From Microvirga lenta (GTDB lineage Bacteria > Pseudomonadota > Alphaproteobacteria > Rhizobiales > Beijerinckiaceae), in NCBI RefSeq assembly GCF_020532555.1, contig NZ_JAJBBR010000009.1:1-64000 (forward strand): a DNA stretch of 64,000 nucleotides. Reading direction: 5' to 3'. Positions 45,642 to 60,447 of this stretch are shown here, piece by piece. Each line of letters begins with the position of its first letter. Position 1 is the first letter of the stretch. The translations under genes were made by a program, and so were the position numbers. The notes under the pieces were generated by a model, which made no database searches, had not been told where the DNA came from, and saw only the letters and a list, made by a program, of their open reading frames with translations.

Positions 45642-46967
45642 TCAGGAGCGCCTGGGGGCAATCGAGGAGGTTGCCGGCACGTCGAGGGTTTTAGCATCCG
45701 GTTCGAGCTTGAGATCATCAAGCCCATAAACATCTTTCCTGAAATGTACCGTTCCATCCTTGGTGGCATACCCGGTGAGATACACCCAGGTGACCGGGAC
45801 CGGCTTCTCAAGTCTGATGTCTTGTCGAACTGTCGAAGAAATTGCAGTCTCGATTGCGGCTTTCGTCCAACCGCCTGCGGGGCCCGATGTGTCGCGCAGC
45901 AACCACTCCGCAAAGCTGGCGATATCCGCGACACGAACACAGCCCGATGAATGGAAGCGTGAATCCTGCGCAAAGAGCCGCTTCGTAGGCGTGTCGTGCA
46001 TATAGACCGCTTCCTTATTCGGCATGTCGATGCGCATCTGGCCGAGTGAGTTGAGCACACCCGGATCCTGCCGCAGGGTATAGCTGGCCACCTTCTGGGT
46101 CGACCAGTCGAGAGACTGCGGATCGATCTCCTGCCCCTTCGCGTCCAGAATGCGAATCTTCATCTTGTCGAGATAGGAAGGATCCCTGCGCACATGCGGA
46201 ATGATATCCTTCTTGATCAGAGATACTGGAACCGTCCATGTCGGGTTGAGATTGACGGCGGAAATGCGGGTTTCGAGCGTCGGGGAGGGTCTGTCAGCTT
46301 TTCCCACGATTGCGACGTAGCGCCTCGAAACCTGGCCACTCTCGACGGCCTCGACCGTGGCGGAAGGAATATTGACCACGACATAGCGTTCGCCGAATGG
46401 GAAAGTCGTGCCCATCAGTCTCTGGGCCGATGCCGCGAGCTGCCGGTGTCGGGTGAGCGCAGACACGTTCAACGCCTCAAGGGTCTTTTCACGCATAGCG
46501 CCGGACTCGGGTAAGCCATGACGCGCCTGGAACCGCTTGATGGCTGCTGTAAGCTCGGCGTCGACAACATCGCTGCCGATCTTGTCAGATGGCAGGTCTC
46601 CCTCGAGTGAAAGTCGTTTGCGGAGAACGGCGACCAGGGGATTCTTGTCCCCGCTCTTCAGTACCGTGTTGGGGGGCAAGACCGGCCAACCGCCTGCTTC
46701 GGCGATGCGCTTGTATGTCCATGCTGCCCGCATCGTATTGATGAAGGTTGTCGCATCCAGAGTCGGGCGAGGATCCTGTGAAATCGAGACAGGAGCAGGA
46801 ATTGGCCTGCTCCTGTCGGGCGCTTGAACTTCCCGCATCGCTACGGAAGTAGGCAAGACGGATTCCTGCGGTGCAGCGGCTGGCGTGCTCTCACGGGAGA
46901 GGGCAGGTGCTGCCATGAAACAGGTGCAGCATAGAAAGCTTGAAACCAGAACATGATGAAATTTCAT
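45642..46967 (-). CDS. L,D-transpeptidase, YcbB/LdtD type
   Basis: 441-residue periplasmic enzyme that makes 3-3 peptidoglycan cross-links. Signal peptide to about residue 22 (FMAAPALS), a peptidoglycan-binding domain at about 100-170 (LRKRLSLEGDLPSD, AIKRFQARHGLPESG), and a YkuD catalytic domain at about 190-390. Key residues are His324 in VYMHDTP and the Ser-Gly-Cys with Cys343 in FHSSGCVRV. This is the beta-lactam-bypass class of LDT. It is shorter than E. coli YcbB and lacks most of its N-terminal scaffold. Monocistronic or followed by the 121-aa unknown. Confidence 0.92.
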   Translation of the reverse strand: MKFHHVLVSSFLCCTCFMAAPALSRESTPAAAPQESVLPTSVAMREVQAPDRSRPIPAPVSISQDPRPTLDATTFINTMRAAWTYKRIAEAGGWPVLPPNTVLKSGDKNPLVAVLRKRLSLEGDLPSDKIGSDVVDAELTAAIKRFQARHGLPESGAMREKTLEALNVSALTRHRQLAASAQRLMGTTFPFGERYVVVNIPSATVEAVESGQVSRRYVAIVGKADRPSPTLETRISAVNLNPTWTVPVSLIKKDIIPHVRRDPSYLDKMKIRILDAKGQEIDPQSLDWSTQKVASYTLRQDPGVLNSLGQMRIDMPNKEAVYMHDTPTKRLFAQDSRFHSSGCVRVADIASFAEWLLRDTSGPAGGWTKAAIETAISSTVRQDIRLEKPVPVTWVYLTGYATKDGTVHFRKDVYGLDDLKLEPDAKTLDVPATSSIAPRRS

Positions 46968-47049: not shown

Positions 47050-47964
47050 TTAAAGAACTTCCTCTATCCTCCGCCTGATGTCGGTGAGAGACGCCATGCA
47101 GTACTCTCCGAACCGCCTCGCCAAATCGGGATACTGCCTGTTCGCCGGTCTGTATATTCCAATTACATATGGAATGGACACCGACAGGCGGCGCAGTTCT
47201 ATATCTTTATCCAGGGAATAAAGTGCGCTGATTGGATTGATGATGGAAACCCCAAGGCCTTGGGAGACGAGGGAGCAGATAGAGGTGGCTGTGGTCGCTT
47301 CGACACGCAGGCGCCGAGTGACAGCATGCTGCTGGAAAATGTCATCGACCGTTCTCCGGTAAGCGTCGTCTGCAGAAAAATAGATGAAATCTTCGCCTTC
47401 GAAGTCGCACGGCTCAAGAACGGCTTTCCTGGTCAAAGGATGACCTTTCGGTAGAATGCAGAGCTCCTCGCCAACGTCGATAATGGTGGATTCTATTCCT
47501 TCCAAAGCTGGGGCAGCCTCAAGGATACCGATGTCGTAGTGGCCAGTGGAAAGGCCGGTTGCGATTGCCCCCTGCTCAACGGAGTGGATGCTGAGACGAA
47601 GGGCATCGTGACTGCCGAGAAAGCTGCGGCACACGGGAGGAAGCAATGTGGAGCCGTAAGCCGGTAGACAGGCGATTTTGATGTGCGCGGAGGCATTCGC
47701 ACGGATGGCATCGGCGGTGCGAGTTATTTCCTCGAGCCCTACGAAAGAGCGTCTTACCTCGGCGTGCAATGAGAGCGCGGCCTCGGTTGGAAGAAGGCGT
47801 CTGCCTTTGCGGGTGAAGAGTGGGAAGCCGACGAGTCTCTCAAGCTCCTTCAGCTCCCGGCTCACGGTAGGCTGAGACGTACGCAGGAGATTGGCCGCCT
47901 GAGTGGCGCCACCCGCCGACATAACGGCATGAAAAACCTCTACGTGACGGAGAGATAATGTCAC
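47050..47964 (-). CDS. LysR-family transcriptional regulator
   Basis: 304 residues: winged helix at 1-60 (LRHVEVFHAVMSAGGATQAA, QPTVSRELKELERLVG) and a periplasmic-binding-protein-like effector domain at about 90-295. GTG start at 47964 with GAGGGAA upstream; the longer ATG frame from 47985 is less likely. It is transcribed divergently from the M81 peptidase gene (48148), the classical layout for a LysR regulator and its target, so it probably controls the operon 48148-58494. Confidence 0.93.
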   Translation of the reverse strand: MTLSLRHVEVFHAVMSAGGATQAANLLRTSQPTVSRELKELERLVGFPLFTRKGRRLLPTEAALSLHAEVRRSFVGLEEITRTADAIRANASAHIKIACLPAYGSTLLPPVCRSFLGSHDALRLSIHSVEQGAIATGLSTGHYDIGILEAAPALEGIESTIIDVGEELCILPKGHPLTRKAVLEPCDFEGEDFIYFSADDAYRRTVDDIFQQHAVTRRLRVEATTATSICSLVSQGLGVSIINPISALYSLDKDIELRRLSVSIPYVIGIYRPANRQYPDLARRFGEYCMASLTDIRRRIEEVL

Positions 47965-47974
47965 AGTTCCCTCT

Positions 47975-47993
47975 ATCCATATCAAAAATGGAT
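47975..47993. promoter_or_regulatory. Candidate LysR-binding palindrome
   Basis: ATCCAT-N7-ATGGAT, a 19-base dyad 10 bases upstream of the LysR start and in the intergenic region facing the M81 gene. A wider dyad, ATATCA at 47979 with TGATAT at 48009, overlaps it. Position and symmetry fit a LysR box, but no binding data exist. Confidence 0.4.
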
Positions 47994-48147
47994 CGATTGA
48001 GTGAAAGATGATATTTGGAGAATTCTTTCTCGTTTGTCACCATCCGCGAAAATGAGTTCCGAAGAAACTCGGGTTGACGCAACAAAGTGTCGCTTGGGTT
48101 CAGGGCGCCGCACTTTTCGTGTGGCTGATATAAGGGGATGGGCGGAG

Positions 48148-49620
48148 ATGGGACGGCGCGTTCTGGTTGCAGAATTCATGCATGAGACGAACACGTTCAG
48201 TGTTCAGCTGACGGACGAGAAAGCTTTCAAGAACTCCAGCTACTATCTTGGCGACGAAATCCCGCCGGCATTTCGTGGGACGCGGACATCCATCGGTGCG
48301 GCCCTTGAAGCGGCGGAGAAGTTCGGGTGGGACGTCGTTCACCCAGTCGCTGCTTCGGCCAATCCATCTGGCAGGGTGACCGACGAGTGTTTCGAAGCCC
48401 TGACGAAGCGAATCTTGGATGCTTGCGATGGCATGGACGGAATTCTGCTTCACCTTCATGGCTCGATGTCCACTCAAAGCCACGATGATGGCGAGGGTGA
48501 GTTGCTCGCCCGCATCCGGTCGCGTGTCGGGCCTGACGTGCCCGTTATCGCCGTGCTCGACCTCCATGCGACCGTGACGCAGCGAATGGCCGACAATGCA
48601 AACTCGCTGATTTCATACCGGACCTATCCCCACATCGATCAGTACGAACGAACTTGGCAGGCTGCGGAGCTTCTGGAGAAGGCCATGGCAGGTGTAGTAA
48701 CGCCTCGAGTAGCTCTTGCCCGCCGCCCCATCCTGTATGCCCTGGATGGAGGGCGCACCACGTCCCCTCCCATGATGGAACTGCTCCGAAGAGGTGACCA
48801 GATAGAGGTGTCAGGAAAGGCTCTTGTCGTCAGCGTCCAAGCCGGATTCTCCTCTGCCGACGTTCACGACATCGGACCGTCCATTGCCGTCACTGGCAAT
48901 GATCGAGCCTCGGCCCAGATAATCGCCGAGGAGCTCATGAACTATGCCTGGGAGCAGAGAACATTCTCGTCGATCCATTTCACGCCACTCGCTGAGGCCA
49001 TCGCCAAGGCGAAAGCCGAAGAGGCTGGAGCCGTAAAGCCTCTGATCATTGCAGATTACTCCGACAATCCCGGCTCCGGCGCTTATGGGGATGCCACCGC
49101 TCTTCTCAAGGCCGTGCTCGAGGCGGATCTCCAGAATGTCGGCTTCCATGCCATCTGCGATCCCGAGGCGGTGCAGCAGGCGCAGGCGGCTGGGGTTGGC
49201 AATCGGGTGAGGCTCGAACTGGGAGGAAAGACCGATCCGACGATGGGAGGAGGTCCTCTCAAGATCACCGGCCATGTCGCTGCAATCACCGATGGATCCT
49301 TCATCGCCTACGGCCCGATGGGGGGCGGTGCCCGTCGCAATTATGGTCTGAGCCTTTTGCTCCGGGTCGGTGGAGTGGAAATCATCGTGATCAGTCATAA
49401 CGGTCAAGCCACTGACCTTGGGCAGTTCACGTCCCTCGGAGTCGATCCAACTCGAAAATCGACTCTCATCGTGAAGTCGATGCAGCACTTCCGTGCAGCC
49501 TTCGAGCCGATTGCGCGAGAGGTCCTTGAAGTCGATACCGGTGCGTTGTCGACGCGCAATTTCAAGGAGCGCCCCTACAAGAACATCAGACGTCCGATTT
49601 GGCCTCTGGACGCCATTTGA
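48148..49620 (+). CDS. M81 family metallopeptidase (MlrC-like)
   Basis: 490-residue zinc hydrolase of the family whose type member, MlrC, finishes microcystin breakdown by cleaving linear peptides. Family blocks: VLVAEFMHETNTFS (5-18), LHLHGSM (101-107), LDLHATVT (137-144), SYRTYPHIDQYE (156-167), with His140 and His162 likely zinc ligands, and ADYSDNPGSGAYGDATALL. No signal peptide, so it acts in the cytosol. ATG at 48148 with GGGCGGAG upstream. First gene of the LysR-linked operon, which imports peptides or amides. Confidence 0.88.
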   Translation: MGRRVLVAEFMHETNTFSVQLTDEKAFKNSSYYLGDEIPPAFRGTRTSIGAALEAAEKFGWDVVHPVAASANPSGRVTDECFEALTKRILDACDGMDGILLHLHGSMSTQSHDDGEGELLARIRSRVGPDVPVIAVLDLHATVTQRMADNANSLISYRTYPHIDQYERTWQAAELLEKAMAGVVTPRVALARRPILYALDGGRTTSPPMMELLRRGDQIEVSGKALVVSVQAGFSSADVHDIGPSIAVTGNDRASAQIIAEELMNYAWEQRTFSSIHFTPLAEAIAKAKAEEAGAVKPLIIADYSDNPGSGAYGDATALLKAVLEADLQNVGFHAICDPEAVQQAQAAGVGNRVRLELGGKTDPTMGGGPLKITGHVAAITDGSFIAYGPMGGGARRNYGLSLLLRVGGVEIIVISHNGQATDLGQFTSLGVDPTRKSTLIVKSMQHFRAAFEPIAREVLEVDTGALSTRNFKERPYKNIRRPIWPLDAI

Positions 49621-49690
49621 GGACATCTTGCCGTGGACCGCCGGAAGGAAGCATCATTCCCCGGCCGACGTCAGTAACCAGGAAGCTTGC

Positions 49691-51373
49691 ATGAATATCG
49701 CTGTTAGCCAGTCCCTCGCATCCGATCGGTCGGGAGAAGCAACTGCTCGCCCAATCGCGGACATCATACTCAGAAACGGTCCGATCTGGTGCGGCCGAAA
49801 TGAGGGTGTCGTGGAGGCGGTCGCAATCTGGCAGGACCGGATTCTGGCGTCCGGGCGCGATGCTGACATCGCCAGTCTAGCCGGCCCGGCAACGCGTATA
49901 ATCGACCTGAAAGGTCGTCTCGCCACACCCGGACTAAACGACTCGCATCTCCACCTGATCTCCCTCGGAATGATGATGGACTGGGTGGATGCAAAGCCAA
50001 CAACCGCACCGACGCTTGAATCGCTTCTTTCCGCGATCAAGGAGCGGGCTTCGAAGACACGTCCCGGCGAATGGATCCTCGCCCGCGGCTACGATCAGAC
50101 GAAGCTTGATGTAGAGCGCCATCCCCATCGGAGCGAACTCGATCAGGCGGCTCCAGACCATCCTATGATGCTGGTACGCACCTGCGGACATATCTCGATC
50201 TGCAATTCCAAGGCCCTGGAATTGGCAGGAATCGATGAGAGTTCGCCGACGCCTCCGGGAGGTCTGATCGAGCAGCAGAATGGCCGCCTCACAGGTCTGC
50301 TGGCGGAGAACGCCCGTGCGCCTGTTTGGGCAGTCATTCCTCCGCCAACGCAGGACGAACTCGTCGCCGCCATCGAGCGAGGTGGCCGTCACCTCTTGTC
50401 GTACGGCATCACCAGCTGCATGGATGCGGCTGTCGGACAACGGGGCGGTTTCGGCGAGATTGCGGCTTACCACAGAGCAAAACGCGAAGGCCGGCTTCCC
50501 GTCCGTACCTGGCTGGCGCTGCTGGGCGATCCTGACAAGACGATCGTTCCGCAATGCTATGAAGCTGGACTGATCTCGGGTACGGGAGATGACATGCTGA
50601 TGGTCGGAGCCATCAAGTTCTTCCTCGATGGTTCCGCCGGCGGCCGCACTGCTTGGATGTCGAAGCCCTACCTGGGCGAGGATGCCACGACCGGTGTTCA
50701 GATGATGTCCGACGACGAACTGAATGAACTTGTCATGGACGCTCACGCCAAGGGGTATCAACTAGCCTGTCATGCTATTGGAGATGCGGCGATCGAGCAG
50801 TTGATCACCGCCTATGAGCGAGCTCTTGCCGCGTTTCCCGACCCGAACAGGCGTCACCGGATTGAGCACTCCGGATTCTCCACGCCGGAGCAGCACGACC
50901 GGATGGTGAAAGCTGGTATCTATCCATGCCCGCAACAGGTATTCGTCTATGACTTCGGAGACGCCTATGTTTCCGTGCTCGGCGAAGAGCGGGGATTGAA
51001 GAGCTATCCGTTCAAGACGTGGATCAATCTCGGCCTGAAGCCTGCGACCGGCAGCGATGCGCCGGTCTGCGAACCTGATCCGTTCCCGAATTTCTATGCA
51101 ATGCTGACACGCAAGACATGGAAGGGAACAGTGATGGATGCGAGCGAGTGCATCTCGATAGAGGAGGCGCTTCAGGCTTACACCGAGTATGGCGCATTCT
51201 CGCAGAAGATGGAGAACGTGAAAGGGCGCCTGGTGCCGGGTCAGTTGGCGGACATCGCAGTCTTCTCGCGAAATCTTCTGACCGCCTCGCCAGAGGATAT
51301 TCTTGACAACACCCAATGCGATCTTACGATCCGAGGAGGTTCGATCGTTCATGATCGTCTAGGCGTCTCTTAG
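49691..51373 (+). CDS. YtcJ-like metal-dependent amidohydrolase
   Basis: 560-residue member of the amidohydrolase superfamily (YtcJ/N-substituted formamide deformylase group). Metal ligands: Asp84-x-His86-x-His88 in GLNDSHLHL, Lys in GAIKFFLDGSAGGR, His in LACHAIGD, His in RHRIEHSGF, Asp in ATGSDAPV. It would cleave an N-acyl, formyl or cyclic amide bond. ATG at 49691 after AGGAAG. It follows the M81 gene by 70 bases and precedes the ABC transporter by 114, consistent with one operon. Confidence 0.9.
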   Translation: MNIAVSQSLASDRSGEATARPIADIILRNGPIWCGRNEGVVEAVAIWQDRILASGRDADIASLAGPATRIIDLKGRLATPGLNDSHLHLISLGMMMDWVDAKPTTAPTLESLLSAIKERASKTRPGEWILARGYDQTKLDVERHPHRSELDQAAPDHPMMLVRTCGHISICNSKALELAGIDESSPTPPGGLIEQQNGRLTGLLAENARAPVWAVIPPPTQDELVAAIERGGRHLLSYGITSCMDAAVGQRGGFGEIAAYHRAKREGRLPVRTWLALLGDPDKTIVPQCYEAGLISGTGDDMLMVGAIKFFLDGSAGGRTAWMSKPYLGEDATTGVQMMSDDELNELVMDAHAKGYQLACHAIGDAAIEQLITAYERALAAFPDPNRRHRIEHSGFSTPEQHDRMVKAGIYPCPQQVFVYDFGDAYVSVLGEERGLKSYPFKTWINLGLKPATGSDAPVCEPDPFPNFYAMLTRKTWKGTVMDASECISIEEALQAYTEYGAFSQKMENVKGRLVPGQLADIAVFSRNLLTASPEDILDNTQCDLTIRGGSIVHDRLGVS

Positions 51374-51487: not shown

Positions 51488-53077
51488 GTGCTCAAGAAAT
51501 TCGTCATCACCACAGCGCTTGCTCTTACCATGAGTGCCGGCGCCTATGCCGAAACACCGCGTCAGGGCGGTACGATCCGCTTCACGGCGCCGTATGGATC
51601 GAGCTTCGCGAACCTCGACATCCACACGTCCAATCGGGCTCAGGACGAGATCTGGGCGAAGGCCATCCATCGGGCGCTCTACAACTGGGACGCAAACGCC
51701 AATAAGCCGGTTCTCGAACTGGCGAAGGAGGTCACGGTTTCAGGCGACGGTCTCGTGCATACCTTCAAGCTGCGAGACGACGCATTCTTTCATCACGGGC
51801 GTAAAATGACCGCCGACGATGTCATCTGGACCTTCACCAGATTGATGGATGGCGCAAAGGCCTATCCCGGCGCGCGCTACGTGCGCATCATCAAGGGTGC
51901 CATCGACGTCGAGAAGGGGCAGGCGAAGGAAATCTCCGGTCTCAAGAAAATCGACGACTTCACCATCGAAATGACCCTGACCGAAAAGGTTGATCCTGGC
52001 TTCAATTTCTACCAGGCCATGACCTCCATCTATCCTGCGGACGAGGCAGGCAAGGACAGTTTCAACTCCAAGCCTATCGGGTTGGGGCCCTACAAGTTCG
52101 TCGAGTACGTCCCCGGATCGCGCTTGGTCGCGGAGCGCTGGGAGAAGTTCTATAAGCCCGGCAAGCCTCATGCCGACAGGGTGACGATCTCGATCATGGG
52201 CGAAGCTTCGGCACGTGACGTCGCATTCCGGAACAAGGAGATCGACGCGTCGATCCTCGGGCCAACCCAGTATGTCGCCTACAAGGCGGATCCGGAGCTC
52301 TCGAAGGGCATTCTCGAGGTTCCCGAGGTCTATACCCGCATCATGGGAATGAACCCGAACTTCAAGCCATTCTCCGATAAGCGTGTCCGTCAGGCCATCA
52401 ATCACGCCATTGATGCGGACCTCATCATCAAGCGGCTCGTGAAGGACAAGGCCTACCGCGCGACGAGCTGGCTTCCGATCTCATCGCCGGCATACGACAA
52501 GGATATGAAGCCTTACGCCTACGACCCTGAGAAGGCGAAGAAGCTGCTCGCGGAGGCGGGGTATCCGGAAGGCTTCGAGTTCGAATGGACGGCAACATCG
52601 AATGAGAGCTGGGGAATTCCGATCGTCGAAGCCGTCATTCCCATGCTCGAAAAGGTGGGAGTCAAGGTCAGGATCAAGCCGGTCGAGGGCACTGTGCTGT
52701 CGGAGGTGGCACGTAGCGGCGATTACCAGGCCTTCATCTGGTCTAACACCTCGGGTCCGGACCCGCTGACCTCGCTCAAGTGCTTCCACTCGGCGACGCC
52801 GCAAACGGCCTGCAACTACACCCAGTTCAAGAATGCCGAGTTCGACAGGCTTCTCGATGAAGCAGCCGCGACGGACGATGCCGCAAAGCGGATTGACAAC
52901 TTGAAAAAGGCCAATGCGATCCTCCGTGAAGAAGCGCCTATGTGGTGGTTCAACTACAACAAGGCTGTCATGGCGTATCAGCCTTGGATCAAGGGATTGC
53001 AGCCGAACGCAACCGAACTGGCGATCCAGAACTACGAGGACATCTGGGTCGAGGCGTCCTCGCCAGCCGCAAAGTAA
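51488..53077 (+). CDS. ABC transporter substrate-binding protein, dipeptide/oligopeptide type
   Basis: 529-residue periplasmic receptor of the SBP_bac_5 family. Signal peptide MLKKFVITTALALTMSAGAY, mature from about AETPRQGG. Blocks AIHRALYNWDAN, HTFKLRDDAFFHHGRKMTAD, GLGPYKFVEYVPGS, FSDKRVRQAINHAIDADLII and AYDPEKAKKLLAEAGYPEGF are typical of DppA-like receptors. GTG start with GGAGG upstream. It delivers ligand to the two permeases encoded next; the hydrolases before it suggest a peptide- or amide-type ligand. Confidence 0.93.
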   Translation: MLKKFVITTALALTMSAGAYAETPRQGGTIRFTAPYGSSFANLDIHTSNRAQDEIWAKAIHRALYNWDANANKPVLELAKEVTVSGDGLVHTFKLRDDAFFHHGRKMTADDVIWTFTRLMDGAKAYPGARYVRIIKGAIDVEKGQAKEISGLKKIDDFTIEMTLTEKVDPGFNFYQAMTSIYPADEAGKDSFNSKPIGLGPYKFVEYVPGSRLVAERWEKFYKPGKPHADRVTISIMGEASARDVAFRNKEIDASILGPTQYVAYKADPELSKGILEVPEVYTRIMGMNPNFKPFSDKRVRQAINHAIDADLIIKRLVKDKAYRATSWLPISSPAYDKDMKPYAYDPEKAKKLLAEAGYPEGFEFEWTATSNESWGIPIVEAVIPMLEKVGVKVRIKPVEGTVLSEVARSGDYQAFIWSNTSGPDPLTSLKCFHSATPQTACNYTQFKNAEFDRLLDEAAATDDAAKRIDNLKKANAILREEAPMWWFNYNKAVMAYQPWIKGLQPNATELAIQNYEDIWVEASSPAAK

Positions 53078-53162: not shown

Positions 53163-54098
53163 ATGCTGTCTTTCATCGTGCGGCGATTGCTGCAGACATT
53201 GCCTATCATTCTGGCTGTTGCAGCTCTGATCTTCGTGATGTTCAGTGTCATTCCGGGCACTTTCGCATCGAGCATGAGCGACGACGGACGGAGTGTCCTG
53301 GACGCCGAAGTCATGACGCGGATGAACAAGGAGTTCGGTCTCGACGATCCGGTTTACGTCCGCTTCGGCAAATACATCGCCCAGTTGGCGACGTTCGATC
53401 TAGGAACCTCTTTCAGGACGCGCCAGCCGGTCGCGGATGTCATTGCCGAGCGCCTTTGGCCTACCGCTCAGCTCGCGATTGCATCCATGTTGTTCGCGAT
53501 AGCCGTCGGAGTGCCGTTGGGGTTCATCGCAGCCCTGCGGCCCGGCGGATGGATCGATACACTTTCCATGATCGGTGCCGTGTCGGGATTGTCACTTCCG
53601 AAGTTCTGGCTTGGCCTGATGCTGATGTATCTCTTCGCGCTCGTGCTCGGTTGGCTGCCGAGCTTCGGCTATGGAGACGGCAGCATCCGCTATCTGATCT
53701 TGCCTGCCGTCGCCCTTGGTGTCGCGCCATTGGCGCTTCTGGCGCGTACAACACGGGCTGCGGTGCTTGAAATCATGAACGCTGATTTCGTCCGCACGGC
53801 TCGCGCCAAAGGAATGAGCGAGAGCAAGGTCGTGCGATGGCATCTTACCCGGAACACCCTTGTGATCGTACTGACGACGATCGGTCTTCAGTTCGGTACC
53901 GTTATCGGTCAGGCTGTGGTCGTCGAGAAGCTGTTCTCCTGGCCTGGGCTCGGTTCGTTGCTGGTCGACAGCGTCACTCTGCGGGACATCCCTGTCGTTC
54001 AGGGTTCGATTCTCGTGATCGTCCTGCTGTTCCTTCTCATCAACATGCTCGTCGATGTGCTTTGTGCCGTCATCGATCCGCGCATCAAGTATACCTGA
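53163..54098 (+). CDS. ABC transporter permease, DppB-like
   Basis: 311-residue inner-membrane subunit with six spans. MLSFIVRRLLQTLPIILAVA is the classic N terminus of the DppB/OppB group, and the EAA loop (ARAKGMSESKVVRWHLTRNT) contacts the ATPases. GGAG precedes the ATG. Pairs with the DppC-like subunit encoded nine bases downstream. Confidence 0.95.
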   Translation: MLSFIVRRLLQTLPIILAVAALIFVMFSVIPGTFASSMSDDGRSVLDAEVMTRMNKEFGLDDPVYVRFGKYIAQLATFDLGTSFRTRQPVADVIAERLWPTAQLAIASMLFAIAVGVPLGFIAALRPGGWIDTLSMIGAVSGLSLPKFWLGLMLMYLFALVLGWLPSFGYGDGSIRYLILPAVALGVAPLALLARTTRAAVLEIMNADFVRTARAKGMSESKVVRWHLTRNTLVIVLTTIGLQFGTVIGQAVVVEKLFSWPGLGSLLVDSVTLRDIPVVQGSILVIVLLFLLINMLVDVLCAVIDPRIKYT

Positions 54099-54107
54099 GG
54101 CTATGAC

Positions 54108-54929
54108 ATGAAGCTCAGAGCCAACCTCCTGATTGGAGGCGTGCTTTTCGCCGGTGTAGTCATTGCCGGAATCTTCGCTCCCTGGCTGGCTCACACCGAC
54201 CCGGTGATGGATGCCAATCTGATGTATGCGGAGGAGCCGCCTGGCCAGGAATTCTGGTTCGGCACCGATGCCCAAGGTCGCGATATCTATAGTCGTGTTC
54301 TCTACGGAGCTCGTATTTCGCTCACGGTCGGCATCGTGTCGCAGCTCATCAATACCGTCATCGGCGTGTGCCTCGGTCTTTCCGCCGGCTACTGGGGTGG
54401 CTGGTGGGACGACTTTGTGAATGGCCTGACCAACATGATGCTGGCCATTCCCTCCCTGATCTTCGCTCTTGCAATCATGGCGATCCTGAACCCTGGATTG
54501 ACGAGCTTGTTGATCGCGCTCGGCCTCACGAACTGGTCGTTTACCTGCCGGCTCGCGCGCGCATCGGCTCTCTCGCTGAAGAGCCAAGGCTATGTGCAGG
54601 CGGCAAAGGTGCTGGGATATGGTGATCTGCGCATCATGCTGACGCAGCTCCTGCCCAATATGCTCGGTCCCATCATCGTCATCGGCACCCTCGGCATGGG
54701 CGGTGCGGTGCTCGCCGAAGCTGCGCTGTCCTTCCTTGGCCTCGGCATCCGCCCACCTTACCCCAGCTGGGGCAGCATGTTGTCGGATGCCCGGGATCAG
54801 ATCACTACGGCCCCATGGATCTCTATTTTCCCCGGGCTCGCGATTTTCATGACCGTCTTGGGCTTGAACCTGCTAGGTGACGGGCTGCGCGATATCCTCG
54901 ATCCTCAAGCGAGGGCACGACGCGCATGA
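54108..54929 (+). CDS. ABC transporter permease, DppC-like
   Basis: 273-residue partner permease. An N-terminal span is followed by the DppC block HTDPVMDANLM and FGTDAQGRDIYSRVLYGARI, then five more spans and the EAA loop (YVQAAKVLGYGDLRIMLTQL). GAGG lies before the ATG. Its stop overlaps the ATPase start by four bases (ATGA), indicating coupling. Confidence 0.95.
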   Translation: MKLRANLLIGGVLFAGVVIAGIFAPWLAHTDPVMDANLMYAEEPPGQEFWFGTDAQGRDIYSRVLYGARISLTVGIVSQLINTVIGVCLGLSAGYWGGWWDDFVNGLTNMMLAIPSLIFALAIMAILNPGLTSLLIALGLTNWSFTCRLARASALSLKSQGYVQAAKVLGYGDLRIMLTQLLPNMLGPIIVIGTLGMGGAVLAEAALSFLGLGIRPPYPSWGSMLSDARDQITTAPWISIFPGLAIFMTVLGLNLLGDGLRDILDPQARARRA

Positions 54930-55906
54930 CGGCTAAACCCCTTCTCGAGGTTGAGAACCTCAGGATCGATCTTGCTCTCGGCAACAAGAAGTTTGCCGCC
55001 GTGCAGGATGTCTCCTTCACGATCGGGCACGGTGAGACGCTGGGACTCGTCGGTGAGTCTGGCTGCGGCAAAAGCATCACCGCTCTGGCGCTCATCGGCC
55101 TCCTGCGTGATCCGCTCGCCATTGGTGGTGGAACCATTCGCTTCGATGGACGCGAGATCCAAAGCCTTTCAGCTTCCGAGATGCGGAAACTGCGTGGCAA
55201 TCGCATTTCGATGATCTTTCAGGAGCCGATGACGGCGCTCAACCCCCTGTCTCCCGTGGGGAGGCAGATCGCGGAAATGTTCGTGCTGCACAAAGGGGCC
55301 AGCTGGCGGGAGGCCGAGCGGCTCGCTGTCGAGGCGCTGGCAAGCGTGCGGGTTCCGGCACCGGACCGGAGGGTCGAAGATTACCCTCATCAACTGTCCG
55401 GCGGCATGCGCCAGCGGGTCATGATTGCGATTGCCTTGGCCTGCGGGCCGGATCTTCTGCTCGCGGACGAGCCGACGACAGCCCTGGACGTGACGGTTCA
55501 GGCCGAGATACTCGACCTTATCCGTGACCTGTCCGCCGCCAAGGGAACGGCGGTGCTGATGATCAGCCACGATCTGGGCCTGATCGCGAATATGTGTCGC
55601 CGGGTCGGAGTCATGTACGCGGGAAAGCTCGTTGAGGAACGTGCTGCCGAGGATGTGTTCCGGGCTCCGAGCCACCCTTACACAAGTGGGCTCGTAGCCT
55701 CCCTGCCGCTGCTCGGTGCAAGGGCTCGGCATGGCCGGCAACGTCTCAAGGAAATTTCTGGCGTCGTTCCACCCGTTGCGGCATTTCCGACCGGGTGTCG
55801 CTTCAATCCCCGTTGCTACGCGGCCAGCGATATCTGCAGAGCCAACGATCCTGCAGCGACCCCACTGAACAGTGGCGGTTTCGTACGGTGCCACCATCAT
55901 GAATGA
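54926..55906 (+). CDS. ABC transporter ATP-binding protein, DppD-like
   Basis: 326-residue ATPase. Walker [10 protein letters not shown]-loop [14 protein letters not shown], signature [15 protein letters not shown], Walker [13 protein letters not shown] and the H-loop [12 protein letters not shown] are intact. The C-terminal oligopeptide-transporter domain carries [20 protein letters not shown], the cysteine cluster that binds an iron-sulfur centre in DppD/OppD. Overlaps both neighbours by a few bases. Confidence 0.95.
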
Positions 55907-56906
55907 AAACACTGGCGATACGATCCTGAGGATTGAGGATCTCGCGGTCCACTTTCCGCTTGGCGGCGGCTTGTTCGGCGGACCGAGGCGGCTCCTGCAT
56001 GCAGTGGATGGCGTCGATCTGGAGTTGAAGCGCGGCGAGTGCCTTGGCCTTGTCGGAGAGTCCGGTTGCGGAAAGTCGACCCTTGCGCTGTCCATTCTGG
56101 GACTTCAGGCGCCGACCCGTGGGCGGATCATCCTTGATGGTCAGGATGTTTCAGGAGCGAGTGCGGGGCGGAAGGCGAGGGCGCGCATTGCCCAAATGGT
56201 GTTCCAGGATCCGTATTCCTCGCTCAATCCCCGTCAGACAGTACGCAGGACCCTCGAAGCTCCCCTCCGCCTCCACGGCATTTCGGCATCAAGCGAGATC
56301 GAGGGGCGCGTGGCCGATATTCTCAAGCGGGTCGGTTTGAGGCCGGAGCATGCCGAAAGGTATCCGCATGAGTTCTCGGGAGGGCAGCGTCAGCGCATCG
56401 GCATCGCGCGCGCACTGATCCTGGAGCCGAAGATCATCATCCTGGACGAGCCGGTATCTGCACTCGACGTCTCCATTCGGGCGCAGATCATCAACCTGCT
56501 GCTGGAGCTCAAGGAAACGCTTGGCCTCTCCTACATCATGATCAGCCACGATCTCGGTGTGGTCGAACACATGAGCGACCGGGTCGCTGTCATGTATCTC
56601 GGTCGTATCGTAGAGACGGGAGGCTGGGAGGAAATCTTCACGAATCCGCAGCATCCGTACACGCGGGCCCTCATTTCGGCGATTCCGGACCCGTTCAGAC
56701 GCAGCAGGGGAGCGAAGATCACGGGTGAGATTCCAAACCCGCTCGACCTCCCTACCGGTTGCAGCTTCCACCCACGCTGCCCTGAGGCGCGGGATATTTG
56801 CCGCGCGCCTTCAACACCCGAGTTTCGCCAGGTTGGGAAAGGGCATCTTGTCCGATGCCGACGTGTTGGCGAAATCGGGATGCCGGAGAAGGCACTGCTC
56901 GCGTGA
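55899..56906 (+). CDS. ABC transporter ATP-binding protein, DppF-like
   Basis: 335-residue second ATPase. Walker [11 protein letters not shown]-loop FQDPYSSLNPRQTV, signature FSGGQRQRIGIARAL, Walker B IIILDEPVSALD, and the C-terminal TGCSFHPRCPEARDICRA cysteine block. ATG at 55899 overlaps the DppD-like stop by eight bases. Completes a canonical receptor-B-C-D-F importer. Confidence 0.95.
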   Translation: MNENTGDTILRIEDLAVHFPLGGGLFGGPRRLLHAVDGVDLELKRGECLGLVGESGCGKSTLALSILGLQAPTRGRIILDGQDVSGASAGRKARARIAQMVFQDPYSSLNPRQTVRRTLEAPLRLHGISASSEIEGRVADILKRVGLRPEHAERYPHEFSGGQRQRIGIARALILEPKIIILDEPVSALDVSIRAQIINLLLELKETLGLSYIMISHDLGVVEHMSDRVAVMYLGRIVETGGWEEIFTNPQHPYTRALISAIPDPFRRSRGAKITGEIPNPLDLPTGCSFHPRCPEARDICRAPSTPEFRQVGKGHLVRCRRVGEIGMPEKALLA

Positions 56907-56973
56907 AACCGAAAGACAAGAGCCGGCTGCGTGACGGCAGGTGGTGGACGTTGCTCTTCGAGAGAGACCTGCG

Positions 56974-58494
56974 ATGACGCGCATTCCAAGAATTTATGTT
57001 CGTGCTCCTCGTTCTGGGGAGGCGCCTCACCTCGCTACGCTTACAATCGGGGACTGGACCATCCCGTGCACCATCGGATCTGAAGGGCTCGTTCAGGCCT
57101 CGTTGAAGCGCGAGGGCGACAAGCGGACGCCCATCGGTGTTTTCCCGCTCCGCTATGGGCTTTTCGACCAGACTACGCTGCCCGACTTTCCGCGCGATCT
57201 CGCGTTTCCCTTCGTGCCCTTGTCGGACGATATGGTCTGGGAAGAGGAGGGGCCCGACTATAACCGGCTCGTCTTCTCGCCGAACGATGAACGCATGAAC
57301 GAGAGGTTGGTCCGGCACCGGAGCGAGCGTCTTTTCGACGTGATCGTGCCGATAGGTTTCAACGACTCCATTCCTGAATTCGGGCGCGGTAGCGCCATTT
57401 TCATCCATGCTGCCCGTCCCGATATGAGCGGCACCGCGGGATGCGTCGGCGTTCCCCGGGAAAAGATGCTCGACTTTGCTCGGCGGCTGGAGCCCGGGAT
57501 GGTCATCGATGTCGATTTCGCTGAGACAACGGCGTTCCCAGCCTCCGATCCGGAGGGGCCACTGGAGACGGTGCGCTTCATCGGCATTCAGCCTGGTCCG
57601 AAACTCCTCGTGATGGGTGCGGTCCACGGCAACGAGCCGTGCGGGACACAGGCCATTCTGCGTGCGATTTCCGATTGCCGCACTGGAAAGCTGGCAATCC
57701 GCAGGGGCGAAGTGACGTTCCTGCCGGTCGCTAATCTGAAGGCCTATCGCCAGCGAACCAGGGAAGGCGACCGGAACCTGAACCGCGATCTGCGCGAGAA
57801 GACGATCCCCGAGGACTATGAAGACCGTATCGGCAATCGCCTCTGTGCACTTTTGCGGGAGAATGAGGTTCTGCTCGATATCCACTCGTTCAGAGGTGCC
57901 GGCGAACCATTTGTTTTTGCCGGGCCGCTCAATAATTCCGGTCCTGTGGAGCCATTTCGGTTCGCGGAGGCTGAAGGTGAGCTCGCTGCGAGGCTTGGAA
58001 CGACGGTCGTCATCCATGGCTGGCTTGAAGTGTATGGGCGCTTCCTGAAGGAACGCATTCGGCTCGGCTATTCCAACAGGGCCAGTTCCGAAGGTGTCGG
58101 CACGACGGAATACATGCGCTTTTCAGGCGGGTATGGCGTGACATTGGAATGCGGTTCGCATGACGATCCCAAGGCGGTCGAGGTTGGTTATTCGGCCATC
58201 GTCAGCGCCCTAGCCCATCTCGGCCTCGTCGATGCGCCCGTCCCTAAGGTCACGGCGAACACTGTCATCCAGATCGTCGACGTTCTGATCTGCGAGGCCG
58301 AAGGGGATCGGCTTGAGGGGAATTGGAGGACAGGGGACGCAATAGCGGAGGGGCAAGCCCTGGTCAGAAGGGGCGCGGGGGAGGTTCTGACCGCGCCGCG
58401 TGACGGGTTCATTATCTTTCCGAACGCGAGCGCCAAGCCCGGGGACGGCTTGTGCTATTTCGGCGTGGCGAGCTCCCGCGTTCTGGCCTCATAG
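56974..58494 (+). CDS. Fusion of YkuD (L,D-transpeptidase-like) and AstE/AspA-like zinc deacylase domains
   Basis: 506 residues with two catalytic domains. The N-terminal part (about 5-185) is a COG3786-type YkuD domain: KRTPIGVFPLRYG, DYNRLVF, GSAIFIHAARPDMSGTAGCV, with likely His145 and Cys157. The C-terminal part (about 195-410) matches succinylglutamate desuccinylase/aspartoacylase: MGAVHGNEPCG (zinc ligands His218, Glu221), DRNLNRDL (268 region), LLDIHSF (His304) and TLECG (Glu392), followed by a small beta-rich end. No signal peptide, so both domains face the cytosol, unusual for YkuD. ATG 56974 follows GAGAGAG. Last gene of the dipeptide-type ABC operon. I do not know a described protein with this fusion. 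Confidence 0.85.
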   Translation: MTRIPRIYVRAPRSGEAPHLATLTIGDWTIPCTIGSEGLVQASLKREGDKRTPIGVFPLRYGLFDQTTLPDFPRDLAFPFVPLSDDMVWEEEGPDYNRLVFSPNDERMNERLVRHRSERLFDVIVPIGFNDSIPEFGRGSAIFIHAARPDMSGTAGCVGVPREKMLDFARRLEPGMVIDVDFAETTAFPASDPEGPLETVRFIGIQPGPKLLVMGAVHGNEPCGTQAILRAISDCRTGKLAIRRGEVTFLPVANLKAYRQRTREGDRNLNRDLREKTIPEDYEDRIGNRLCALLRENEVLLDIHSFRGAGEPFVFAGPLNNSGPVEPFRFAEAEGELAARLGTTVVIHGWLEVYGRFLKERIRLGYSNRASSEGVGTTEYMRFSGGYGVTLECGSHDDPKAVEVGYSAIVSALAHLGLVDAPVPKVTANTVIQIVDVLICEAEGDRLEGNWRTGDAIAEGQALVRRGAGEVLTAPRDGFIIFPNASAKPGDGLCYFGVASSRVLAS

Positions 58495-58563: not shown

Positions 58564-58674
58564 CTGTCCTGAAGGGTAACCGTGCCATTTCGCCGTACTG
58601 CGGCATTTCGCAAAACAGACTAGAGAGCGTCTCAGGGACAGTAAGTCCATACCTGCGCTTTGGGGGCTCGGCCT

Positions 58675-60447
58675 GTGACCATCGTTCTGGAAAAAATAAG
58701 AAGAACGCTTCGTCAGAGAAGCGTGGCCGTTTGTTCGGCAATTCTTGTCGCTCTTGCAGTCGTAACTGCGATTGTTGCACCTCGAATGATGTCGGATCCG
58801 GTTGCCGAGATCACTTATTCCGAGTTTGCACGGGACCTGGGCCTTGGAAAGGTCGAACGGGTGCTGATCGAGGAGGGCGGCTTTACCGTTCATCTCTCCG
58901 ATGAAGAAGCCTTCGTGCGCCTCCCCGGTGATCTCCTGAGCGCCTCCTACCTTGACCGTCTGGCATCGTCCGGCGTGGAGGTGGATTTCGCGAAGCCTGG
59001 GATCGATGCATCCGGTATCGCAGGCTTCGTCGTCCCTCTGGTCCTGGTGGTGGCGGTTCTTGCGCTACTCGCCGTCCAGACGGACTTCAACCCGGCGGCC
59101 CGGTGGCCCCGTGTGATCAGGAACATTCCCGATCGCTTCGACGATGTGGCAGGGCAGAACGAGCCGAAGGCGGAATTGCAGGAAGTCATTGCCTTTCTGC
59201 GGGACTCGGAGGCTTTCACGAAGGTGGGCGCCCGCATTCCGCGAGGCCTTCTTATGGTCGGCCCTCCTGGGACAGGCAAAACACTCATCGCAAAGGCGTT
59301 GGCCGGCGAGGCGGGTGTCTCGTTCTTGGCCGTTTCTGGCAGCGATTTCTCGGCCCCACTCATCGGCATCGCCAAGAGCCGCGTTTCGAAGCTGTTCCAG
59401 CAAGCACGCAAGCGGGCCCCGTGTCTGATCTTCATCGACGAGATCGATGCCATCGGGCGCAAGCGAGGGGGAGGGGGATCCGCTGCCGACCGCGAGTTCG
59501 AGTCGACCCTGAATCAACTCCTTGTCGAGATGGACGGGTTCAACACGACGGCTGGAGTCATCGTCATCGGGGCGACCAACCGTGTTGATGTGCTCGATCC
59601 GGCCCTTCTGCGTCCTGGCCGCTTCGACCGCCAGGTTCATATCGGCCTTCCCGATATTGCGGGAAGGGAGGCGATTCTTCAGGTTCACGCCCGAAAAGTA
59701 ACACTCGCAGAGAGTGTCGACCTGAGTTCCATTGCCAAGGGTACGCCCGGCTTCTCCGGTGCCGACCTCGGCAATCTGCTGAACGAGGCCGCCATTTTCG
59801 CTGCACGTGAAGGTAACCTCGCCATCACTCGTGAAAATCTGGAGGCGGCCCGCAACAAGGTCATCATGGGCCTGGAGAGACGATCCCTCGCCGTCACCCG
59901 CGAGGAGCGCAGGCTAGTCGCCGTGCACGAGGCGGGCCACGCCCTCTGTGCCTGCCTGACGCCTGGATCCGACAAGGTTCATAGCGCAACCATCGTGCCT
60001 CATGGACAGGCTCTAGGTCTGGTCATGCGCCTGCCGGATCATGACCGTCACTGCATTCCTGTCGAGAAGCTCGAGGCGGATCTGATCGTTGCTATGGGCG
60101 GCCGGGCTGCCGAGGAAATCGTGTTCGGCCCCAAGAGGGTTACGACCGGCGCGGCCAGCGATATTGCTCATGCTACGGACATTGCGCGAAGAATGGTCAC
60201 CGAATGGGGTATGAGCTCTGCCATTGGCATGGTTCGGGTTTCGCGATCGAACGACAGCTTTCCCCCAGAGGTGGAGCGCGAAATCCGCCGGATTATCGAA
60301 GAGATGTATGCTGCCGCCAAAACGTGCATCGAACACAATCGAGGCGCGCTGGACACTCTCGTGGAGGCGCTGCTGGAGCGCGAAACGATTGATGGCGATG
60401 AGGTTCGTCGCATCGTTTCTCTGGCGGACGAGCGGATGGCCGCTTAA
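58675..60447 (+). CDS. Divergent FtsH-like AAA+ zinc metalloprotease
   Basis: 590-residue second FtsH. Two N-terminal spans flank a short periplasmic part (about 15-36 and 115-134). Then come the AAA module with Walker A GPPGTGKT (196-203), Walker B LIFIDEID, LLRPGRFDRQVHI, and the peptidase with HEAGH (418-422), GGRAAEEIVFG and TEWGMS. The pore loop, normally MFVG followed by GASRVRD, reads APLIGIAKSRVSK, so the conserved aromatic Phe is replaced by Leu229. It is also about 50 residues shorter than usual at the C terminus. GTG at 58675 with GGGGG upstream; a TTG at 58660 is also open. Probably a specialised paralogue. Confidence 0.9.
   Translation: MTIVLEKIRRTLRQRSVAVCSAILVALAVVTAIVAPRMMSDPVAEITYSEFARDLGLGKVERVLIEEGGFTVHLSDEEAFVRLPGDLLSASYLDRLASSGVEVDFAKPGIDASGIAGFVVPLVLVVAVLALLAVQTDFNPAARWPRVIRNIPDRFDDVAGQNEPKAELQEVIAFLRDSEAFTKVGARIPRGLLMVGPPGTGKTLIAKALAGEAGVSFLAVSGSDFSAPLIGIAKSRVSKLFQQARKRAPCLIFIDEIDAIGRKRGGGGSAADREFESTLNQLLVEMDGFNTTAGVIVIGATNRVDVLDPALLRPGRFDRQVHIGLPDIAGREAILQVHARKVTLAESVDLSSIAKGTPGFSGADLGNLLNEAAIFAAREGNLAITRENLEAARNKVIMGLERRSLAVTREERRLVAVHEAGHALCACLTPGSDKVHSATIVPHGQALGLVMRLPDHDRHCIPVEKLEADLIVAMGGRAAEEIVFGPKRVTTGAASDIAHATDIARRMVTEWGMSSAIGMVRVSRSNDSFPPEVEREIRRIIEEMYAAAKTCIEHNRGALDTLVEALLERETIDGDEVRRIVSLADERMAA

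Follow-up and report, generated by a model that had tools for sequence, protein, structure and literature searches.

A YkuD Domain Fused to an AstE/AspA-Type Zinc Hydrolase behind a Peptide Importer in Microvirga lenta: A Candidate Two-Site Hydrolase

A 64,000-nucleotide stretch of DNA from Microvirga lenta (contig NZ_JAJBBR010000009.1, positions 1 to 64,000; hereafter the window) contains a gene at 56974..58494 on the + strand which encodes, in a single open frame, a protein of 506 residues comprising a YkuD domain and a zinc hydrolase half of the AstE/AspA type. The gene is the last of an operon for a Dpp-type peptide importer, the residues of both active sites are conserved, no leader is visible, and the fused YkuD halves form one clade. 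The protein is plausibly, if tentatively, read as a cytosolic hydrolase with two sites that acts on peptides supplied by the importer, probably peptides containing D-amino acids, with murein stem peptides favoured. Each half has known counterparts, leaderless YkuD L,D-carboxypeptidases for the one and AstE-type hydrolases for the other; as far as our searches of the open-licence literature show, their fusion behind a peptide importer is apparently undescribed. No paper was found there for YkuD with aspartoacylase or YkuD with succinylglutamate desuccinylase, and a further search gave, among the papers listed, only unrelated ones. This agrees with the original prediction, made from the sequence of the window, which knew of no described protein of this architecture.

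Two Active Sites in One Chain

The YkuD domain (Pfam PF03734; residues 28–179, positions 57055..57510, + strand) scores 36.8 bits against a cut-off of 23.4, and five other fusions that were scanned score 37 to 51 bits. The zinc hydrolase half lies at 57571..58491 (+), with its Pfam core (AstE_AspA_cat, PF24827) at residues 207–305, scoring 47.2 bits against a cut-off of 25. This score, the HxxE and His zinc ligands and the fold place it in the AstE/AspA superfamily, and among solved structures its fold comes nearest to those of AstE/AspA proteins and of the DoeB/EutE deacetylase. Its scores against the NCBIfam models are far under their cut-offs: 23 versus 170 bits for succinylglutamate desuccinylase, 21.9 versus 180 for aspartoacylase, and 15.9 versus 402.7 for DoeB. 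Judged by sequence, the zinc half is a member of the superfamily which is not assignable to any of these three enzymes. Public plasmid records name the fusion “succinylglutamate desuccinylase” in one case and “succinylglutamate desuccinylase/aspartoacylase family protein” in two, and a fourth has no genes annotated at its position. These names cover the zinc half alone, hiding the YkuD half.

In the YkuD domain, the family motif points to His145 (57406..57408, +) as catalytic, and alignment identifies Cys157 (57442..57444, +) in the motif T-A-G-C-V-G-V. In the zinc half, alignment yields a putative zinc-binding HxxE (His218 and Glu221; 57625..57636, +), a putative zinc-binding His304 (57883..57885, +) and a putative general base, Glu392 (58147..58149, +). 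All six residues are invariant in 24/24 aligned fusions and in the 4/4 plasmid copies, and the YkuD His and Cys are also present in 23/23 aligned YkuD rows. In both halves, nonsynonymous changes per site are fewer than synonymous changes in 10 of 10 fusion pairs, one of which is saturated at synonymous sites and several of which are near saturation. On these comparisons, no fusion examined departs from the YkuD active-site residues, which are under purifying selection throughout. The original prediction had described one chain with both sites complete, naming these six residues, and both points are borne out; a frame or assembly error is ruled out as the source of the fusion, which is intact in 28 full-length copies.

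The active-site motif of cross-linking L,D-transpeptidases is SxGC[IV]R. It is present in 13 other YkuD genes of the same genome, whereas the fused domain has TAGCVGV and does not fit it; this difference may divide hydrolases from transferases. Perhaps the YkuD half works as a transferase in the cytosol, forming or exchanging amide bonds, and the zinc half edits or removes an acyl group: the Cys/His pair is complete, and passages of PMC10727944 describe YkuD enzymes able to exchange the terminal amino acid of the stem. Such a role seems quite improbable, given that the Arg of SxGC[IV]R is absent, that the linked genes are for import and degradation, and that no acceptor-making genes were noticed in the annotated loci. 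A two-step hydrolase is still the best reading; of the amide exchange or cleavage that had originally been proposed for the Cys domain, ahead of deacylation, exchange is less likely than hydrolysis because of TAGCVGV in place of SxGC[IV]R.

Predicted Location in the Cell

The highest 12-residue Kyte-Doolittle mean in residues 1–40 of the fusion is 0.95. Earlier in-frame GTG codons precede its Met (at 56941 and 56944), and the Met itself has the same position in the remaining 15 fusions of the genus. The frame in Microvirga puerhi (L010) opens 5 codons ahead of the Met, so there is no room for an export signal there. In the copies from family f44 a start is possible 23 codons earlier, and the extra stretch is non-hydrophobic by eye. 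Hydropathy and the limits of the upstream frame thus give no sign of an export signal in the fusion, as had been claimed, and a hidden leader is ruled out by hydropathy together with the short upstream frame in L010. The fusion protein is likely to be cytosolic, as predicted from these features.

Passages of PMC8649774 describe ElsL, a cytosolic, leaderless YkuD L,D-carboxypeptidase linked to murein-peptide use. Compared by description, the fusion resembles ElsL in its leaderless YkuD domain and catalytic Cys, and is unlike ElsL in having a fusion partner and an importer operon, since ElsL is described there as a YkuD domain alone, without either. A short YkuD protein of ~177 residues (L002:1468-1998; in the window's own genome, G000, on contig C14; also L042–L054 and L080–L100) occurs almost throughout the genus and is common across the order; that of the window's own genome has the motif TEGCVAV and is without a leader by hydropathy. 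In a sample of the order, 311 of 397 genomes matched the search, and among the matches listed nearly all hit the YkuD half only. Given ElsL and the short YkuD proteins common in the order, a leaderless cytosolic YkuD domain is not new by itself. The original view of a cytosolic YkuD domain as unusual needs correction on this point.

The Importer Operon

The operon begins with a gene for an MlrC-like M81 metallopeptidase (48001..49620, +, with a probable start near 48148), followed by an Amidohydro_3 amidohydrolase (49493..51373, +), a Dpp-type substrate-binding protein of family SBP_bac_5 (51488..53077, +), importer permeases B (53163..54098, +) and C (54108..54929, +), importer ATPases D (54926..55906, +) and F (55872..56906, +), both with oligo_HPY, and finally the fusion; a LysR-type regulator (47050..47985, −) is divergent upstream. 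The importer has the components of a Dpp/Opp system, i.e., SBP_bac_5, two BPD_transp_1 permeases and two ATP-binding cassette (ABC) ATPases with oligo_HPY, and among the matches listed no NCBIfam model is above its cut-off for any of the five genes. The place of the fusion as the last gene of a peptide-type import operon, behind substrate-binding protein, permease, permease, ATPase and ATPase, is as first proposed. The fusion directly follows ATPase F in all 16 fusion-bearing genomes of the genus, and a Dpp-type importer adjoins it in 20 of the 28 copies overall (for G934, 2.3 kb upstream of the fusion were examined). In the window and nine loci with long flanks, Amidohydro_3 precedes the importer throughout, as does M81 except in L111, where M81 is unmatched.

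Distribution and Origin of the Fusion

Within the genus, 16 of 48 genomes (that of the window included) have the full-length fusion and one (G008) has the zinc half alone. A second genus of the family, g449, has the fusion in 4 genomes; it was found in 9/248 genomes of the family sample, 5 of these from the window's own genus, in 3/18 genomes of genus g76 (family f44), in 1 genome of family f74 (L154), and at four sites on plasmids of Rhizobiaceae (Rhizobium sp. ACO-34A, R. daejeonense and two plasmids of Ensifer canadensis T173). Broader samples, the window's own genome included, gave 4/397 for the order, 1/385 for the class and 2/398 for the phylum; the last also had three genomes of other classes with the zinc half and no YkuD match beside it. 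The fusion is patchy outside the genus. Loci with a core identical to that of a partner (L026, L028–L030, L032, L033, L037, L039, L040) were excluded from counts and trees. Two stretches on viral contigs fitted the pattern searched for as YkuD relatives, and neither was confirmed.

The same importer occurs with the zinc half alone in G008, G173, G844, G348, G413 and 12 of 13 Bosea-type loci (L011–L022, L024). In these 13 loci and in G348 and G413 there is no ATPase pair between permease C and the zinc half; another Bosea-type locus, L106, likewise lacks two ATPase genes beside the permeases, and a second importer with ATPases then follows. For six distant stand-alone deacylases (L122–L127), inspection of the N-termini and BLAST against the genes of the window revealed no common partner. 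Since relatives keep this operon without the YkuD half, the two steps would be separable.

Perhaps, then, the zinc half is the working enzyme, deacylating an imported N-acyl compound unrelated to murein or cleaving an isopeptide bond in it, with the YkuD half as an accessory for a broader range of substrates. The stand-alone zinc half holds the same operon position in the Bosea-type loci, G008, G173 and G844, its nearest folds are those of deacylases of the AstE/AspA and DoeB/EutE kind, and M81 and Amidohydro_3, its partners in the operon, likewise belong to hydrolase families. An accessory role fits less well with a YkuD active site that is strictly kept under purifying selection, with the links to D-amino-acid genes described below, and with scores so far under the AstE, AspA and DoeB cut-offs; on balance we consider it on the unlikely side.

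In a tree of YkuD domains, 24 fused domains stand on one side of a branch and 25 stand-alone short YkuD proteins on the other, with support 100/100; ten near-alike stand-alone rows were removed for this tree, and an earlier one (19 fused, 35 stand-alone) gave the same result. In the deacylase tree, f74 and f44 branch first and g449 next, followed by a group that holds both the window's own genus and the stand-alone Bosea-type proteins. This tree does not unite the fused rows in a single clade (approximately unbiased test p of 0.0446 against one clade, which is marginal; long branches are present). The first deacylase tree was made without L003, L012, L014 and L020, the second without L023, L025 and rows with a stop, and all trees are without the four plasmid fusions and L184. 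One old fusion followed by several losses of the YkuD half would fit both trees; alternatively, a related YkuD domain may have been transferred, or gained repeatedly. Rhizobium jaguaris has a YkuD protein of the fused type standing alone (54.9% identity; L184:9004-9600, plasmid pRCCGE525c), with a GntR-like frame, noted by eye, just upstream.

Proposed Function

The pathway that we infer for the preferred reading, a two-site hydrolase of imported peptides, with its two activities, their order, the metal and the substrate, would run as follows. The Dpp-type importer would bring in peptides that most likely contain D-amino acids, murein stem peptides being the favoured candidates. The YkuD half would act as an L,D-carboxypeptidase, in which Cys157, with His145 activating it, would attack the bond that joins a C-terminal D-residue to an L-centre (in murein, the bond between meso-diaminopimelate (mDAP) and D-alanine), and the thioester would be resolved by water rather than by an amine. 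The AstE-type half, with zinc on His218, Glu221 and His304 and with Glu392 as base, would then cut the next amide, possibly the γ-D-Glu-mDAP isopeptide bond (D-Glu, D-glutamate).

A link to D-amino acids comes from the genes beside the fusion of L154 (f74). Behind the fusion there stand genes for an amino oxidase and for a D-aminopeptidase of family M55; on the far side of a LysR gene are those for a D-amino-acid transaminase (NF005209, 352.4 bits against a cut-off of 320), an ABC importer of amino acids, a peptidase of family S58 and another M55 enzyme (the group with both M55 genes spans L154:12285-19714). In G012, G016 and G038 (L172, L171 and L173) a cluster of M55, D-transaminase, substrate-binding protein and S58, with 57–68% identity, lies elsewhere in the genome, and a similar M55 occurs in a different setting in G022, G023, G030 and G040, the last of which has a second importer and an Amidohydro_3 match within the same 18 kb. 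In a survey of 62 genomes for M55 and S66 (G034 of the genus excluded), M55 is present in 8/16 fusion genomes of the genus versus 2/30 without fusion or deacylase (Fisher p 0.0015, uncorrected for relatedness).

In four operons, those of L154 (2673-3617) and of L180 (2390-3331), L181 (2494-3408) and L183 (5441-6337) from Rhizobiaceae, the importer is preceded by a serine hydrolase of the Beta-lactamase2 family with SxxK, SSN and KAG motifs and no leader by eye; that of L180 was found by similarity to that of L154, and the other three also by Pfam. With a beta-lactamase-fold gene at the head of these operons, the system might serve to detoxify or catabolise imported D-peptides of non-ribosomal origin, beta-lactam-like ones among them; the serine hydrolase would open the lactam and the fusion would trim the rest. 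Rhizobium sp. ACO-34A also has an AAT-family (6-aminopenicillanic acid acyltransferase) gene (L180:18236-19372), beside its own peptide importer and ~8 kb from the fusion operon. Yet this gene was noted at one locus only, the serine hydrolase may equally be a D,D-peptidase, and D-aminopeptidase and D-transaminase suit plain D-peptides, so that we think this role very improbable.

The two-site hydrolase could be extended to a cytosolic degrader of murein peptides in some Alphaproteobacteria, in which imported stems would be trimmed from the C-terminus by a serine D,D-peptidase, in operons that have one, and by the two halves of the fusion as L,D-carboxypeptidase and zinc γ-D-Glu-mDAP amidase, and D-amino-acid enzymes would use the products. 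This fuller scheme is rather unlikely as it stands; if true, the fusion would be the first single chain known to us that combines an L,D-carboxypeptidase with an isopeptide amidase. According to passages of PMC9790009 and PMC13046382, LdcA and Mpl were not found in Agrobacterium or Caulobacter, and peptide degradation is suggested. If other Alphaproteobacteria degrade imported murein stem peptides in this way, the fusion is a direct candidate for one part of the pathway. An LdcA-type S66 enzyme is absent from 19 of 24 fusion genomes (Mpl was looked for in the window's own genome only); a role of the fusion as a replacement for LdcA was rejected, there being no significant inverse link with S66.

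Several points weigh against the hydrolase reading, or against murein as its object. Dpp-type importers are promiscuous, and M81 and Amidohydro_3, the operon partners in the window, are not known murein enzymes; a literature search for M81 in murein metabolism found nothing relevant. The importer is not adjacent to 8 fusions (4 of g449, 3 of f44 and that on E. canadensis pT173a). In mutants of Agrobacterium tumefaciens and Caulobacter lacking the amidase, tetrapeptide muropeptides accumulate in the cytosol, as passages of PMC9790009 and PMC13046382 report, so sugar-linked tetrapeptides are not necessarily substrates of leaderless YkuD proteins; in Agrobacterium, two YkuD proteins have no predicted signal (PMC11527210). 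There is only one genome in which D-amino-acid genes lie next to the fusion. M55 is absent from the window's own genome, from 3/3 genomes of f44 and from 7/7 Bosea-type genomes (g7), and is present in 1/4 of g449 and in G008, which is without the YkuD half. S66 shows no significant inverse link with the fusion (5/16 versus 15/30, p 0.35). The operon is kept without the YkuD half, which is thus dispensable there, in the Bosea-type loci, G008, G173 and G844; it is poorly modelled in both structure predictions (mean predicted local distance difference test score 46.7 in one), and its profile matches to the PDB are weak.

Comparison with Known Systems

Pgp1 is an M14 zinc carboxypeptidase and the counterpart of Csd4. 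In Helicobacter and Campylobacter, as passages of PMC4599014 describe, the YkuD L,D-carboxypeptidase Csd6/Pgp2 is found with the M14 zinc carboxypeptidase Csd4. The likeness to the fusion is at the level of the fold: murein stems are there acted on successively by a YkuD enzyme and by a zinc enzyme whose fold resembles that of the zinc half. Those are two separate wall-shaping proteins, as described, whereas the fusion is a single chain without a leader and its zinc half is of the AstE type. It differs from the zinc deacylases AstE, AspA and DoeB (PF24827; 3cdx, 6twm) in being below their NCBIfam cut-offs and fused to YkuD, and from the cyanophycin dipeptide hydrolase CphZ (8eip/8ein), which has a different substrate and no YkuD half. 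YejBEF-YepA of Agrobacterium, as passages of PMC9790009 describe it, is similar in being an ABC-type uptake of murein fragments, in the same bacterial order and with the fate of the peptide open; it is unlike the present system in that the transporter is different and that an Agrobacterium ampD mutant accumulates tetrapeptide species in the cytosol.

Other Genes near the Fusion

Directly downstream of the fusion in the window (58660-60447, +) is a gene for an FtsH-family protease of 595 residues, barely above the cut-off of TIGR01241; no match to it stands behind the fusion in L004–L010, L110 and L111. Upstream of the operon (45645-46967, −) there is an L,D-transpeptidase-like gene with PG_binding_1 and YkuD domains, considered as a possible partner of the operon, which is unmatched in 10 loci that extend at most ~2.5 kb upstream of M81, mostly less. 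In Ensifer canadensis, plasmid pT173a, which carries a fusion copy (L182:9784-13524), is typed as conjugative; an IS6 transposase lies near this copy and quorum-sensing genes lie further on.
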